The notes under the pieces: model-generated
Seen by the model: the letters and a program-made list of their open reading frames with translations, nothing else
What the model was told of the DNA's origin: nothing
The model's database searches: none
Made by a program: the position numbers and the translations under genes
Source: Rhodococcus oxybenzonivorans
Lineage (GTDB): Bacteria; Actinomycetota; Actinomycetes; Mycobacteriales; Mycobacteriaceae
Assembly: GCF_003130705.1 (NCBI RefSeq)
Contig: NZ_CP021354.1
Span: 558,001-622,000, forward strand
DNA length: 64,000 nt
Reading direction: 5' to 3'
Shown here: in pieces, positions 14,808 through 51,221 of the stretch
How the letters are laid out: each line of letters opens with the position of its first letter
How positions within the stretch are numbered: the first letter of the stretch is position 1

Positions 14808-17045
14808 GTGGCCCTGTACCGGAAGTACCGACCCGCATCCTTCGCCGAGGTGGTGGGGCAGGAGCACGTCACCGAACCACTGAGCACCGCACTCGATGCC
14901 GGACGGATCAACCACGCCTATCTGTTCTCCGGTCCTCGTGGCTGCGGCAAGACGTCCTCTGCCCGCATCCTCGCGCGCTCGCTCAACTGCGTCGAAGGCC
15001 CGACGTCCACCCCGTGTGGTCAGTGCCCCTCCTGTGTGGCTCTGGGACCGGGCGGTTCCGGCAACCTCGATGTCACCGAACTCGACGCCGCCAGCCACGG
15101 TGGTGTCGACGACACGCGGGAGCTGCGCGACCGCGCGTTCTACGCACCCGCGGAGTCGCGGTACCGGGTGTTCATCGTGGACGAGGCCCACATGGTCACG
15201 ACGGCCGGATTCAATGCCCTCCTCAAGATCGTCGAGGAACCGCCGGAGCACCTCATCTTCATCTTCGCCACCACCGAGCCGGACAAGGTGCTGCCGACCA
15301 TTCGTTCGCGTACCCACCATTACCCGTTCCGGTTGCTGGCGCCGTCGACTATGCGTGGGCTGCTCGAGAAAATCTGCCTGCAGGAGAACGTTCCGGTGGC
15401 GGATCCCGTATATCCGCTGGTCATCCGTGCGGGCGGCGGTTCTCCGCGAGACTCGCTGAGCATCCTCGACCAGTTGCTGGCCGGTGCGGGCGACGACGGG
15501 GTGACCTACCCGCGTGCGCTTGCGCTCCTCGGTGTCACCGATGTGGCACTCATCGACGACGCAGTCGACGCACTGGCCACTGGAGACGGCGCTGCGCTGT
15601 TCGGAACCGTGGACCGTGTCATCGACGCCGGCCACGATCCGCGGCGGTTCGCCGTCGACCTTCTCGAGCGTCTACGCGACCTGATCCTTATGCAAGCGGT
15701 GCCGGACGCCGCCGAGCGCGGCCTGGTCGACGCACCCGGCGATGTGCTCGAGCACATGCGCGCACAGGTGAAGCGGATCGGACCGGCAACGCTCACCCGA
15801 TACGCGGAGGTGATCCACGCCGGGCTCGGCGAGATGCGCGGCGCCACTGCCCCACGTCTGTTGCTCGAAGTGATGTGCGCCCGCATGCTTCTGCCGTCGG
15901 CGTCCGACGCGGAGTCCGCGGTATTGCAGCGACTCGAGCGAGTCGAGCGGGGACTTCCCCCGGCCGGTACGGCACCGGCGCCTGCGGTAGCCGGACGTCC
16001 GAACCCGGCGCCCGCGGCGCAGAACGGTTCGACGGCAGATCCTGCGGCGCAGGCCAATTCGTCCCCGCAGCCCGAACTCAAGTTTCAGCGGCCCTCGATG
16101 AGGGCGGCCGAGACAGTGCCTGCGCCACCCGAACCCGAACCGGCGCCACACCCCGTTCCGAAGCCCGAGCCGACACCCGAGCCTGCCCCCGTTCCGGAGC
16201 CGACGCCGGAGCCCGCCCCGGTTCCGGCGCCCGAGCCTGCTCCCGTTCCGGAGCCGACGCCGGAGCCCGCCCCGGTTCCGGCGCCCGAGCCCGCTCCCGT
16301 CCCCGAGCCGGAACCGACGCCGCAACCGGTAACCGAACCCGATGCGACCCCGGCTCCCGAGGTCGCGGCGCAAGCGGACGCGCCCGGCGGCCCCGACGCC
16401 GCTGCACTGCGAGAGGCATGGAACAGCCTGCGCGAGAAGGTGAGCCAGCGGAACAAGATTCTTCCGGCGATGCTGTCGGCGGCGACGGTGCACGACGTGC
16501 AGGGCAATCGCTTGATCCTCGCGCATCCCGTTCCCAATCTGGGCGCACGCATCGCCTCACCGCACAACGCGCAGGTCATCGCGGAGGTGCTCGCCGAGAT
16601 GTTCGGCGGCGACTGGGAAGTGGAGTATCAGGCGGGCGCTCCGGCACCCCCGCCGCCGCCGGTCACGAAGGTCGCCTCGGCACCTACCCGACCGGCCGGC
16701 ACACCGCGATTCTCGCGGCCCAGCCAGGACAAGACCGCACAGCGTGCAACTCCACCGTCGTCGGAGCCGCGGGCTGCAGGCGCAGAAATCGCTCGGCCGC
16801 AGCCTCGTTCGTCGTCCGAGCCGGACGACGACATTCCGCCGCCGGAGGCACCCGACTATCCCGACGATCCTGCACCCCCGATCGACTACGAATCCGCGAC
16901 CCCTCCTGTCACCACCCCGGAAGACGAAGAGGAGATGTTCGCCGAGGCGGCGGAACCCGCTGATCCGTCCACACGTCGTGACCCGGAGGTCGTTGCGTTC
17001 GAATTGCTCAAGGACATGCTCGGGGCGAGGAAACTCGAGGGCTGA
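14808..17045 (+). CDS. dnaX: DNA polymerase III subunit gamma/tau
   Basis: 745-residue clamp-loader ATPase that joins the replicase halves at the fork. Visible: Walker A GPRGCGKTSSAR (about residues 42-53), a four-cysteine zinc module (CVEGPTSTPCGQCPSC), Walker B VDEAHM, and the arginine finger region PTIRSRTHHYPFR. The C-terminal part after residue 370 is a long Pro/Ala/Glu linker with PEPAPVPEPTP repeats, followed by a tau-like folded domain (ALREAWNSLREKVSQRN). GTG at 14808 is chosen because the sequence opens with the conserved MALYRKYRP. No internal frameshift site was evident. Confidence 0.95.
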   Translation: MALYRKYRPASFAEVVGQEHVTEPLSTALDAGRINHAYLFSGPRGCGKTSSARILARSLNCVEGPTSTPCGQCPSCVALGPGGSGNLDVTELDAASHGGVDDTRELRDRAFYAPAESRYRVFIVDEAHMVTTAGFNALLKIVEEPPEHLIFIFATTEPDKVLPTIRSRTHHYPFRLLAPSTMRGLLEKICLQENVPVADPVYPLVIRAGGGSPRDSLSILDQLLAGAGDDGVTYPRALALLGVTDVALIDDAVDALATGDGAALFGTVDRVIDAGHDPRRFAVDLLERLRDLILMQAVPDAAERGLVDAPGDVLEHMRAQVKRIGPATLTRYAEVIHAGLGEMRGATAPRLLLEVMCARMLLPSASDAESAVLQRLERVERGLPPAGTAPAPAVAGRPNPAPAAQNGSTADPAAQANSSPQPELKFQRPSMRAAETVPAPPEPEPAPHPVPKPEPTPEPAPVPEPTPEPAPVPAPEPAPVPEPTPEPAPVPAPEPAPVPEPEPTPQPVTEPDATPAPEVAAQADAPGGPDAAALREAWNSLREKVSQRNKILPAMLSAATVHDVQGNRLILAHPVPNLGARIASPHNAQVIAEVLAEMFGGDWEVEYQAGAPAPPPPPVTKVASAPTRPAGTPRFSRPSQDKTAQRATPPSSEPRAAGAEIARPQPRSSSEPDDDIPPPEAPDYPDDPAPPIDYESATPPVTTPEDEEEMFAEAAEPADPSTRRDPEVVAFELLKDMLGARKLEG
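16191..16298 (+). repeat. 54-bp near-perfect duplication in dnaX linker
   Basis: Two adjacent 54-base units (16191-16244 and 16245-16298) starting GTTCCGGAGCCGACGCCGGA and differing only near their ends. They encode the 18-residue block VPEPTPEPAPVPAPEPAP, twice in a row, within the proline-rich linker. Confidence 0.85.
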
Positions 17046-49782: not shown

Positions 49783-50190
49783 TCAGTTGAGGACGCCCTC
49801 GTGGTCGGGGCAGTACCGGGTGATGGCACCGATGATGTAGTAGTAGACGCCGTCGGCGGAGAGCATGGGCGTCCACTCCTCGCGCACCCGGTCGAGGGGT
49901 TTGCCGGCGTCGAGGGCGGTGCAGATTTCGCCGGCCTGGTGCACCGCGGTCTCGTCGTTGGTGACGTTCTGGTTCATCGACCTCAAATAGGTCAGGTAAT
50001 CGGCGGCGGTGGCGGGGTCGTCGGCGACCGCGAAGATGCGCTTCCCCGGTGCGGAGGCGGCGGTGGTCCTGGCAGCGGCGGAGGTCGTGCTCGACTCCGG
50101 TGCCGCGGAATCGGCGCTGTCCCCACCGCAGGCGGTCAGGAATGTCGCGGAGCAGAGGGTGAGGGCGGTCAGAGCAAGAGTGCGGCGCAT
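49783..50190 (-). CDS. DUF732-type lipoprotein
   Basis: 135 residues: lipobox FLTAC near residue 21, a Ser/Thr/Ala linker, then a small alpha-helical domain (DPATAADYLTYLRSMN, ICTALDAGKPL, IGAITRYCP) typical of DUF732 of mycolata. The cysteines in EICTAL and RYCP likely form a disulfide. Secreted or surface attached; function unknown. Confidence 0.78.
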   Translation of the reverse strand: MRRTLALTALTLCSATFLTACGGDSADSAAPESSTTSAAARTTAASAPGKRIFAVADDPATAADYLTYLRSMNQNVTNDETAVHQAGEICTALDAGKPLDRVREEWTPMLSADGVYYYIIGAITRYCPDHEGVLN

Positions 50191-50303
50191 GTGGTGACGG
50201 AGTCCTTTCGAGGCTGGTGCGGCGACGATCGTATCGCCCGTGCGGCGAGAGCACGCGGTGTGTGTTCGCGGCGTTCGCCTGTTCGCCCGGGTGCCCGGCA
50301 GGT

Positions 50304-50309
50304 AGTGTT
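50304..50309 (+). promoter_or_regulatory. Candidate -10 box of the methyltransferase transcript
   Basis: TAGTGT at 50304-50309 would give a transcript with a leader of about 130 bases. No convincing -35. Confidence 0.35.
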
Positions 50310-50337
50310 GCCCTCTCCAGTCGGAGTGGTTCGAGGA

Positions 50338-50450
50338 GGTGAGACCCGTGTTCGTCAGTTCAGTCCGGGTGCTCTCACCCCGCGACCGCGCGGTGGTGCC
50401 GACCTGAGGTGGCCGAGAGAGCGCCCATCGGCAATCCGAAAGGCACTCTC
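50338..50450 (+). promoter_or_regulatory. Attenuator-like leader of the HemK-family gene
   Basis: Segment 1 GGTGAGA-CCCG (50338-50348) pairs with segment 2 CGGG-TGC-TCTCACC (50366-50379). Segment 3 GAGAGCGCC (50417-50425) pairs with segment 4 GGCACTCTC (50442-50450), with an inner TCGG/CCGA. Segment 4 abuts the gene start and its hairpin encloses the ribosome site AAAGG (50439-50443). Segment 2 (GCTCTC, 50371-50376) can instead pair with GAGAGC of segment 3. This is an erm-like 1:2/3:4 versus 2:3 layout. Confidence 0.6.
50348..50407 (+). CDS. Leader peptide before the HemK-like methyltransferase
   Basis: 19 codons, MFVSSVRVLSPRDRAVVPT, GTG start, with AGGAGG seven bases upstream, a stronger ribosome site than that of the gene itself. 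It runs through segments 1-2 of the leader structure and stops 44 bases before the methyltransferase ATG. Its role as a ribosome-position sensor is inferred. Confidence 0.6.
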   Translation: MFVSSVRVLSPRDRAVVPT

Positions 50451-51221
50451 ATGTCAGTTTCCGTCGAAGATGCTCTCGTTCATGAATTGCGCTCTGCCGG
50501 CTGCGTTTTCGCCGAAGATGAAGCACGGTTGATCCTCGCGGCCGCGAGTGATCGGACGAACCTCGTGTCGATGGTCCAGCGGCGCGTTTCCGGTGTGCCA
50601 CTGGAACACGTGCTCGGCTGGGCAGAGTTCTGCGGTCTGCGAATAGCGGTCGACGCCGAGGTTTTCGTGCCTCGCCGGCGTACTGAATTCCTCGTCGACC
50701 GGGCGGCGGCTTTGATGCGTGAAGGTGCTGTCGTGGTCGACCTGTGCTGTGGGTCGGGAGCGGTCGGAATTGCGCTCGCCGCCCTTATCGATTCCCCCGA
50801 GTTGTATGCGGTCGATATCGACCCTGCCGCGGTCCGATGCGCTCGTCGTAACATGCCCGCGGAGCGCGTGTTCGAGGGCGACCTCTACGACCCGTTGCCT
50901 GCTTCCTTGCGCGGACAGGTCCATGTTCTGGTGGCCAACGCTCCATATGTGCCGACCGAGGCGATTCGGTTGATGCCCCCCGAGGCGCGACTGCACGAGC
51001 CGCGGGTGTCACTCGACGGTGGTGCCGACGGCCTGCACATTCAGCGGCGAGTGGCGGTCGGGGCGCAGCACTGGCTCGGCCCCGGCGGTCACCTCCTGAT
51101 CGAAACAAGTGAGAGCCAGGCAACGCGGACAGTCCAGGCCTTCACCGACGCGGGGTTGAGCGCGCGAGTCGAGTCCTCCGCCGAGCTCGGTGCCACCGTC
51201 GTCGTCGGAACGCGGTCGTGA
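50451..51221 (+). CDS. HemK/PrmC-like N5-glutamine methyltransferase paralogue
   Basis: 256 residues. SAM site VVDLCCGSGAVGIALAA and DIDPAAVRCARRN, then the catalytic-type NAPYVP where PrmC has NPPY; ETSESQATRTVQAF ends the fold. N-terminal helical domain (RRVSGVPLEHVLGWAEFCGLR) matches release-factor methyltransferases. The NPPY-to-NAPY change marks a subgroup annotated as a putative protein N(5)-glutamine methyltransferase; its target is not proven. ATG at 50451; the ribosome site AAAGG is inside a hairpin. Confidence 0.85.
   Translation: MSVSVEDALVHELRSAGCVFAEDEARLILAAASDRTNLVSMVQRRVSGVPLEHVLGWAEFCGLRIAVDAEVFVPRRRTEFLVDRAAALMREGAVVVDLCCGSGAVGIALAALIDSPELYAVDIDPAAVRCARRNMPAERVFEGDLYDPLPASLRGQVHVLVANAPYVPTEAIRLMPPEARLHEPRVSLDGGADGLHIQRRVAVGAQHWLGPGGHLLIETSESQATRTVQAFTDAGLSARVESSAELGATVVVGTRS

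Follow-up and report, generated by a model that had tools for sequence, protein, structure and literature searches.

The short leader in front of a PrmC-related methyltransferase gene in the 64,000-nucleotide stretch of Rhodococcus oxybenzonivorans DNA analysed here (the window) very probably belongs to a family of ribosome-mediated translational attenuators that is widespread in Actinomycetes and apparently undescribed. On comparative evidence, a leader open reading frame (ORF), a characteristic geometry and alternative 2:3 and 3:4 helices are spread to five gene families. For the methyltransferase branch, we lean towards a switch in which a ribosome held at the start of the leader ORF turns the gene on. 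The parts of the window leader, all on the forward strand, are as follows.

50303..50308, +, −10-like hexamer TAGTGT (putative; predicted transcript start about 50315)
50334..50339, +, leader Shine-Dalgarno (SD) AGGAGG, read from the sequence
50338..50344, +, segment 1, GGTGAGA, overlapping the leader SD; predicted to pair with segment 2b
50348..50407, +, predicted leader ORF of 19 codons, GTG (50348) to TGA (50405-50407), peptide MFVSSVRVLSPRDRAVVPT
50367..50376, +, segment 2, GGGTGCTCTC, predicted partner of segment 3
50373..50379, +, segment 2b, TCTCACC, alternative partner for segment 1
50417..50426, +, segment 3, GAGAGCGCCC, predicted to pair with 2 or 4; triple covariation
50438..50443, +, methyltransferase SD GAAAGG, read from the sequence
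50442..50450, +, segment 4, GGCACTCTC, overlapping the methyltransferase SD and extending to the ATG (50451)
50451..51221, +, PrmC-related protein N(5)-glutamine methyltransferase (TIGR03704), 256 aa, 403.6 bits against a cut-off of 248.8

Much of this architecture had been proposed by a first-pass annotation made from the window alone. The 19-codon ORF and its AGGAGG stand, with a spacer of 8 bases (50340-50347) rather than the 7 first given, and the methyltransferase ribosome site and start indeed lie within 3:4, as that annotation had placed them. For the leader SD, we take AGGAGGTGA to be the complement of the 16S 3′ end. A start of the peptide at an in-frame upstream GTG inside AGGAGGTGAG was rejected because no SD would serve it. 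Folded alone, the window leader reaches −54 kcal/mol (z −2.12), which is a modest result since 5 of 200 shuffles fold equally well; in this minimum free energy (MFE) structure, 2:3 is formed without a ribosome and segment 1 is paired with segment 4. As the single-sequence fold only modestly beats shuffles, the case rests on comparison.

The gene behind the leader had been assigned to the HemK family, and its TIGR03704 score bears this out. TIGR03704 is entered as "putative protein N(5)-glutamine methyltransferase". The protein falls under the cut-off for true PrmC (TIGR03534; 176.1 vs 199.1 bits), and a separate PrmC is encoded elsewhere in the same genome (241.9 bits, cut-off 199.1). We know of no substrate for TIGR03704 proteins, and found no study of this methyltransferase in the open-access literature; the leader gives it a testable physiological context.

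Both the leader ORF and the stems are conserved before TIGR03704 genes in many Actinomycetes, which answers the check that the first-pass annotation had proposed. A protein search gave a match in 48 of 61 genomes (the window's own and relatives) at E ≤ 1e-30, the weakest of which could represent other HemK proteins. Scanning named genomes retained 80 methyltransferase loci, bringing the total to 110 (30 + 80). Of these, 64 carry the strict motif GGAGGTG[AG]G upstream (18/30 and 46/80) and the other 46 do not; duplicate records of genomes already counted account for three loci with the motif and two without it. None of the 10 Bacillota loci from the named genomes has the strict motif, so that it is present in 46 of the 70 remaining named-genome loci. 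The motif-bearing genera include Streptomyces, Kitasatospora, Streptosporangium, Microtetraspora, Actinomadura, Nonomuraea and Pseudonocardia. In Erythropolis-type Rhodococcus (L013, L014, L015, L017 and L018), the methyltransferase is present and its leader absent, with only an AGGAGG...CTCTCTCATG stretch left; these genomes carry the leader before the hydrolase gene.

The helices were assessed in two alignments. A1 holds 46 of the 64 motif-bearing loci and was built without fitting to the 2:3 structure; it omits L031, L032 and L059 (same genome twice), L083, L091, L097, L040 and L080 (long insertions), L020-L024, L007 and L009 (near-identical), and L048, L070 and L075 (usual gene start not found). 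A2 comprises 94 hand-chosen leaders, aligned and fitted to the 2:3 model, and omits L020-L024, ten methyltransferase loci from the class-wide search (L144, L167, L169, L177, L178, L179, L190, L222, L231 and L245) and a few older loci. Since L020-L024 have a rebuilt segment 2 and a shorter 2:3, their omission favours 2:3; these five Rhodococcus leaders carry a CTCCT stretch at the place of 2b that could pair with the SD itself. A further alignment, A3, takes in 51 of 69 references, with a few ends reset by hand and the L225 row lacking its 5′ part, and MAFFT alignments of larger sets are gappy.

Helix 2:3 is paired in 98.0% of cells in A1 and in 97.4% in A2, where six of its 10 pairs changed on both sides, none of 500 shuffles scored as high, and sliding the segments gave at most 69.3%. 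For 3:4, the corresponding values are 92.6% in A1 and 89.2% in A2, the latter matched by four of 500 shuffles and falling to at most 60.8% when slid. Four of its six pairs changed on both sides, a number that 68 of 500 shuffles attain, and the most informative 3:4 pair is broken in 22 of 90 leaders. Columns 44, 92 and 131 of A1 covary (44:92 is TA in 23 sequences and CG in 18; 92:131 is AT in 19 and GC in 17), and since the three change together, one position of segment 3 tracks both of its partners. The alignments thus indicate that the methyltransferase leaders form mutually exclusive 2:3 and 3:4 helices with the gene's SD and start in segment 4, strongly for 2:3 and moderately for 3:4. In the scheme of four segments first proposed, pairing 1:2 and 3:4 or else 2:3, the 1:2 helix (segment 1 with 2b) stays a predicted one: it is seen in 85.6% of cells with little covariation, which hardly tests it because segment 1 is part of the nearly invariant SD. 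GGAGGTG is invariant across the 46 sequences of A1, the same motif having served to pick the loci; in the methyltransferase SD of those leaders, the GG is invariant and the two preceding As nearly so. A small hairpin within segment 2 (88.1% of cells paired) shows weak covariation. An arm just before the SD, 4′ (GGCATCCC), was rejected as the partner of segment 3 in methyltransferase leaders, being 85.3% paired with covariation no higher than in shuffles.

The comparison likewise indicates that the leader ORF is translated from its own SD. In 193 of 195 leaders, an [AG]TN codon lies 13 (in a few cases 14) nucleotides downstream of the first G in GGAGG, against a chance estimated at about 40% with four offsets allowed. 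Of 115 methyltransferase leaders, 113 have a frame 0 that closes ahead of segment 3, compared with 37 and 36 for the other two frames. Over the five families, frame 0 does so in 259 of 267 leaders; the corresponding counts are 181 for frame +1, mostly owing to the TGA within ATGA and GTGA, and 53 for frame +2. As the sequences are related to one another, such counts do not represent independent events. Counts of closure and of start and stop codons are of loci, some possibly one genome counted twice. The ORF usually has 14-21 codons. Start and segment 2 are 17-21 nt apart in 115 of 121 methyltransferase leaders, while 7-18 nt separate the stop from segment 3 in 93 of 121 and the distance falls outside that range in 28.

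Among 122 methyltransferase leaders, the starts are ATT in 74, ATC in 25, GTG in 11, GTT in five, ATG in four, GTC in two and ATA in one; 107 are therefore near-cognate (neither ATG nor GTG), mainly AUU. The hydrolase, Rox, GNAT and patatin leaders start with ATG or GTG in 135 of 146 cases. Stop codons of the same 122 are TAG in 65, TGA in 43 and TAA in 14.

The peptide differs among families and the frame varies too, each of the three frames over segment 2 being used by some leaders. Segment 2 stands in another phase in 17 of the 92 methyltransferase leaders with an anchor, two of 13 GNAT, one of 87 hydrolase and 11 of 11 patatin leaders, the last showing two phases among themselves; 42 leaders without an anchor were left unclassed. 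All 31 leaders with segment 2 in another phase still close before segment 3. At codon 2, positions 1 and 2 vary and the third base is C in all 176 leaders of standard spacing, a fixed third base beside two variable ones that points to a constraint on the RNA rather than on coding. In L195 and L196, which lie outside the 176, this base is G.

Covariance searches placed the leader before five unrelated families: the TIGR03704 methyltransferase, the rifampin monooxygenase Rox, an alpha/beta hydrolase, a two-domain GNAT and a patatin-like protein. Model R1 matches in at least 131 of 394 class genomes, many with several matches. From among the R1 matches listed, 135 loci were taken, of which nine had no ORF call and 126 gave an ORF: 61 methyltransferase, 52 hydrolase and Rox jointly, seven GNAT, four patatin-like and two apart, one of which (L154) carries a hydrolase ORF in the right frame. 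Model R2, built from all five families, matches in 98 of 251 family genomes (E ≤ 0.01) and 129 of 394 class genomes (E ≤ 0.001). Of 30 further loci, 29 gave an ORF, and of 60 more, 56 did. The leader thus precedes one of the five families at 124/126, 29/29 (two already seen, since L246 and L274 repeat L203 and L159) and 56/56 ORF-called loci. L263, L283, L326 and L327 have no ORF call, and L336 has no leader. In the four plasmid records that were matched, the gene table, which is known to be incomplete, lists no feature at the matched stretch.

The window's genome carries two copies of the leader (85.6 and 90.9 bits, the next match scoring 22.9); the second, at G000:C1:2091564-2091671 on the minus strand, precedes an alpha/beta hydrolase gene. 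The sole solved relative of the hydrolase at E ≤ 0.01 is the esterase 4ao6 (E 6e-20). Two Rox proteins exceed the rifampin-monooxygenase equivalog cut-off of 800 (820.4 and 819.6 bits); a third one tested, at L200, is short and falls below it. The genome of the window also encodes a Rox (927.4 bits), whose location is not among the leader matches. The first ~40 residues match the hydrolase start in 14 of 22 Rox ORFs (L142, L143, L147, L149, L152, L157, L187, L193, L197, L198, L199, L204, L205 and L218), 12-16 residues do so in two and none in six. Judging from these N-termini, Rox was apparently dropped in behind the hydrolase leader and first codons, and so seems to have replaced the rest of a hydrolase gene. 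Within the stretches fetched, a paralogue of IF-1 (infA) lies downstream of the leader-bearing GNAT gene at four of seven loci (L150, L151, L237 and L241). As a post-transcriptional regulon present in numerous actinomycete genera, the family would place a single RNA switch in control of a rifampin monooxygenase, an as yet uncharacterised hydrolase, the PrmC-like methyltransferase and a GNAT linked to translation.

Upstream of the leader, a TANNNT hexamer occurs at −48 to −20 from GGAGG in 111 of 121 methyltransferase leaders (mean of 15.8 in mononucleotide-shuffled sequences) and in 71 of 73 others (10.5); its commonest position is −30 to −34. A scan of the window leader with the sigma-70 consensus found nothing. 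The position of the hexamer predicts that the transcript starts before the leader SD rather than inside the ORF, the latter being one of the outcomes that the first-pass annotation had named as counting against its proposal. No terminator-like site was found in window positions 50190-50700. A divergent DUF732 gene (window 49783-50190, minus strand) adjoins the putative leader promoter. Elsewhere in the window, at 16319-16412, ARAGORN calls a tRNA with a four-base anticodon that has no Rfam match and is probably a false positive.

Taken together, these features suggest the following scheme. Transcription would start ~20 nt before the near-perfect leader SD, and a ribosome would initiate at GTG in the window, usually at AUU or AUC in relatives, on an ORF that runs across segment 2 and stops shortly ahead of segment 3. 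Ribosomes running through the ORF would cover segment 2, so that 3:4 forms and hides the methyltransferase SD and start (OFF). A ribosome held at or near the leader start would instead cover segment 1. The leading edge of an initiating ribosome lies at about +15, which places segment 2, 17-21 nt after the start, just past it. Left free, segment 2 would capture segment 3 and release segment 4, and the methyltransferase would be translated (ON). We infer the direction of this switch, in which we have moderate confidence, and start-proximal arrest as its signal; the inducer would probably be some block of translation initiation or early elongation.

We modelled folding with a 32-nt ribosome mask for 111 methyltransferase leaders and 138 leaders of the other four families. 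In the former, helix 2:3 has a probability of 0.30 in the absence of a ribosome. A ribosome at the start raises it to 0.61, and with the ribosome at codon 2, at codon 7 and at the stop it is 0.37, 0.00 (a value forced by the mask) and 0.11. The unpaired fraction from SD to start is 0.40, 0.50, 0.46, 0.36 and 0.48 for the same states; moving the ribosome from codon 7 to the start leaves this region more open in 70 of the 111 leaders and less open in four, so that the model prefers the start state to an elongating ribosome. A ribosome at the stop codon opens the region about as much, and the start is not unique in this respect. Opening the window leader is modelled to cost 4.7 kcal/mol when a ribosome sits at the start, as compared with 9.0 without one, 8.0 at the stop and 7.2-11.6 at other codons. 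The means over 116 methyltransferase leaders differ little between ribosome positions (none 6.9, start 6.4, stop 5.9, codons 3-14 mostly 7.2-7.8 kcal/mol). The 138 leaders of the other families show no start-dependent opening (28 more open, 25 less), and their most open state is that with the ribosome at the stop (0.54 vs 0.41 without a ribosome). In this model, then, the output step in those four families may differ, for example by coupling to termination.

A start-held ribosome is one of several ways in which these helices might be used. Ongoing translation of the leader could simply repress the gene, as has been suggested for lmrC uORF2, any loss of ribosomes rather than arrest at the start letting 2:3 form. 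The MFE structure of the window leader, with 2:3 formed in the absence of a ribosome, agrees with this, as does a report on lmrC, in which disruption of the uORF2 start gave strong constitutive expression (PMC8546547). However, 2:3 is modelled at half the probability without a ribosome that it has with one at the start (0.30 vs 0.61 in the 111 methyltransferase leaders), the ribosome-free window leader costs 9.0 kcal/mol to open, and its MFE structure ties segment 1 to segment 4. We regard simple repression as unlikely.

About equally unlikely is peptide-dependent, drug-specific arrest as in erm, in which an antibiotic would stall the ribosome on a nascent motif such as WVLP in the hydrolase and Rox leaders. 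Peptides within these two groups are very similar (MNAVSxWVLP or VNAVSTWVLPSGVTVGR), and Rox is a rifampin monooxygenase by its score (820.4 bits, cut-off 800). Yet TGG GTG CTC CC is for the most part segment 2 itself, so that pairing can explain its conservation; the 31 leaders with segment 2 in another phase further lower this reading, and the codon 2 pattern in 176 leaders is one of RNA rather than of coding. The erm-like logic of the first-pass annotation thus survives in part: a ribosome at the start doubles modelled 2:3 pairing in the methyltransferase leaders, but no arrest peptide is common to all.

A ligand- or protein-binding 5′ untranslated region of the riboswitch kind, in which the ORF is incidental, would account for some nucleotides between start and segment 2 that are conserved beyond coding need. 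It is very improbable given closure of the frame before segment 3 in 259 of 267 leaders and the narrow spacing of the start. Moreover, Rfam 15 gave no match at the gathering score in the window region and none at E ≤ 1 in eight related loci, in line with the first-pass annotation, which recognised no described riboswitch here.

The least probable reading is the self-control through release factors first suggested, in which slow leader termination would report under-methylated release factors and induce the methyltransferase: a ribosome waiting at a stop codon shortly before segment 3 would cover part of that segment, and the modelled stop state also opens the SD, but the genome has its separate PrmC, all three stop codons are in use and Rox, hydrolase, GNAT and patatin genes also stand behind this leader, for which reasons it was rejected as a general rule. 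As peptide, frame of segment 2 and stop codon all vary, neither an erm-type arrest peptide nor release-factor feedback is supported as such a rule.

The start-held ribosome may have a broader meaning. It is conceivable, and we put it forward tentatively, that the leader senses ribosomes held at initiation, class-wide and independently of the peptide, as a module moved between at least five unrelated genes that answers blocks of initiation or early elongation. A near-perfect SD and a deliberately poor AUU or AUC start would then park a 30S or 70S particle just short of segment 2. If so, its regulon would span antibiotic inactivation, ribosome or factor modification and a paralogue of IF-1, and the prevalent AUU starts would offer a natural system for start-codon discrimination and IF3.

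Among known systems, the leaders of ermB and ermC act by translational attenuation and share with the scheme proposed here a short ORF, four segments and a methyltransferase SD freed by a ribosome held upstream. The differences are that here no arrest peptide is common to all; that the starts of the methyltransferase branch are mostly near-cognate; and that the enzyme is a protein-type rather than an rRNA adenine methyltransferase, its leader being shared by five families. The whiB7 gene of mycobacteria, which encodes a transcription factor, offers another case of actinobacterial uORF-dependent control, tied to the antibiotic response, whereas no transcription-factor gene is among those assigned behind this leader. 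We found no description of the leader itself in print among open-access papers. The ilvB and fthC uORF motifs are likewise conserved uORF leaders found computationally, before different genes, and the accessible part of that paper does not contain the present leader (PMC11109978). The rifamycin-associated element (RAE) is a 19-bp palindrome that acts on transcription and, like our leader, precedes rox, in Streptomyces venezuelae (PMC10719064). A search of 21 Rox loci for an RAE-like pattern, over the roughly 200 nt upstream of the leader that were covered, gave no match. The lmrC leader of Streptomyces lincolnensis works through a premature transcription terminator, whereas the window leader has nothing terminator-like in 50190-50700; what the two have in common is ribosome-mediated attenuation through a uORF in an actinomycete (PMC8546547).
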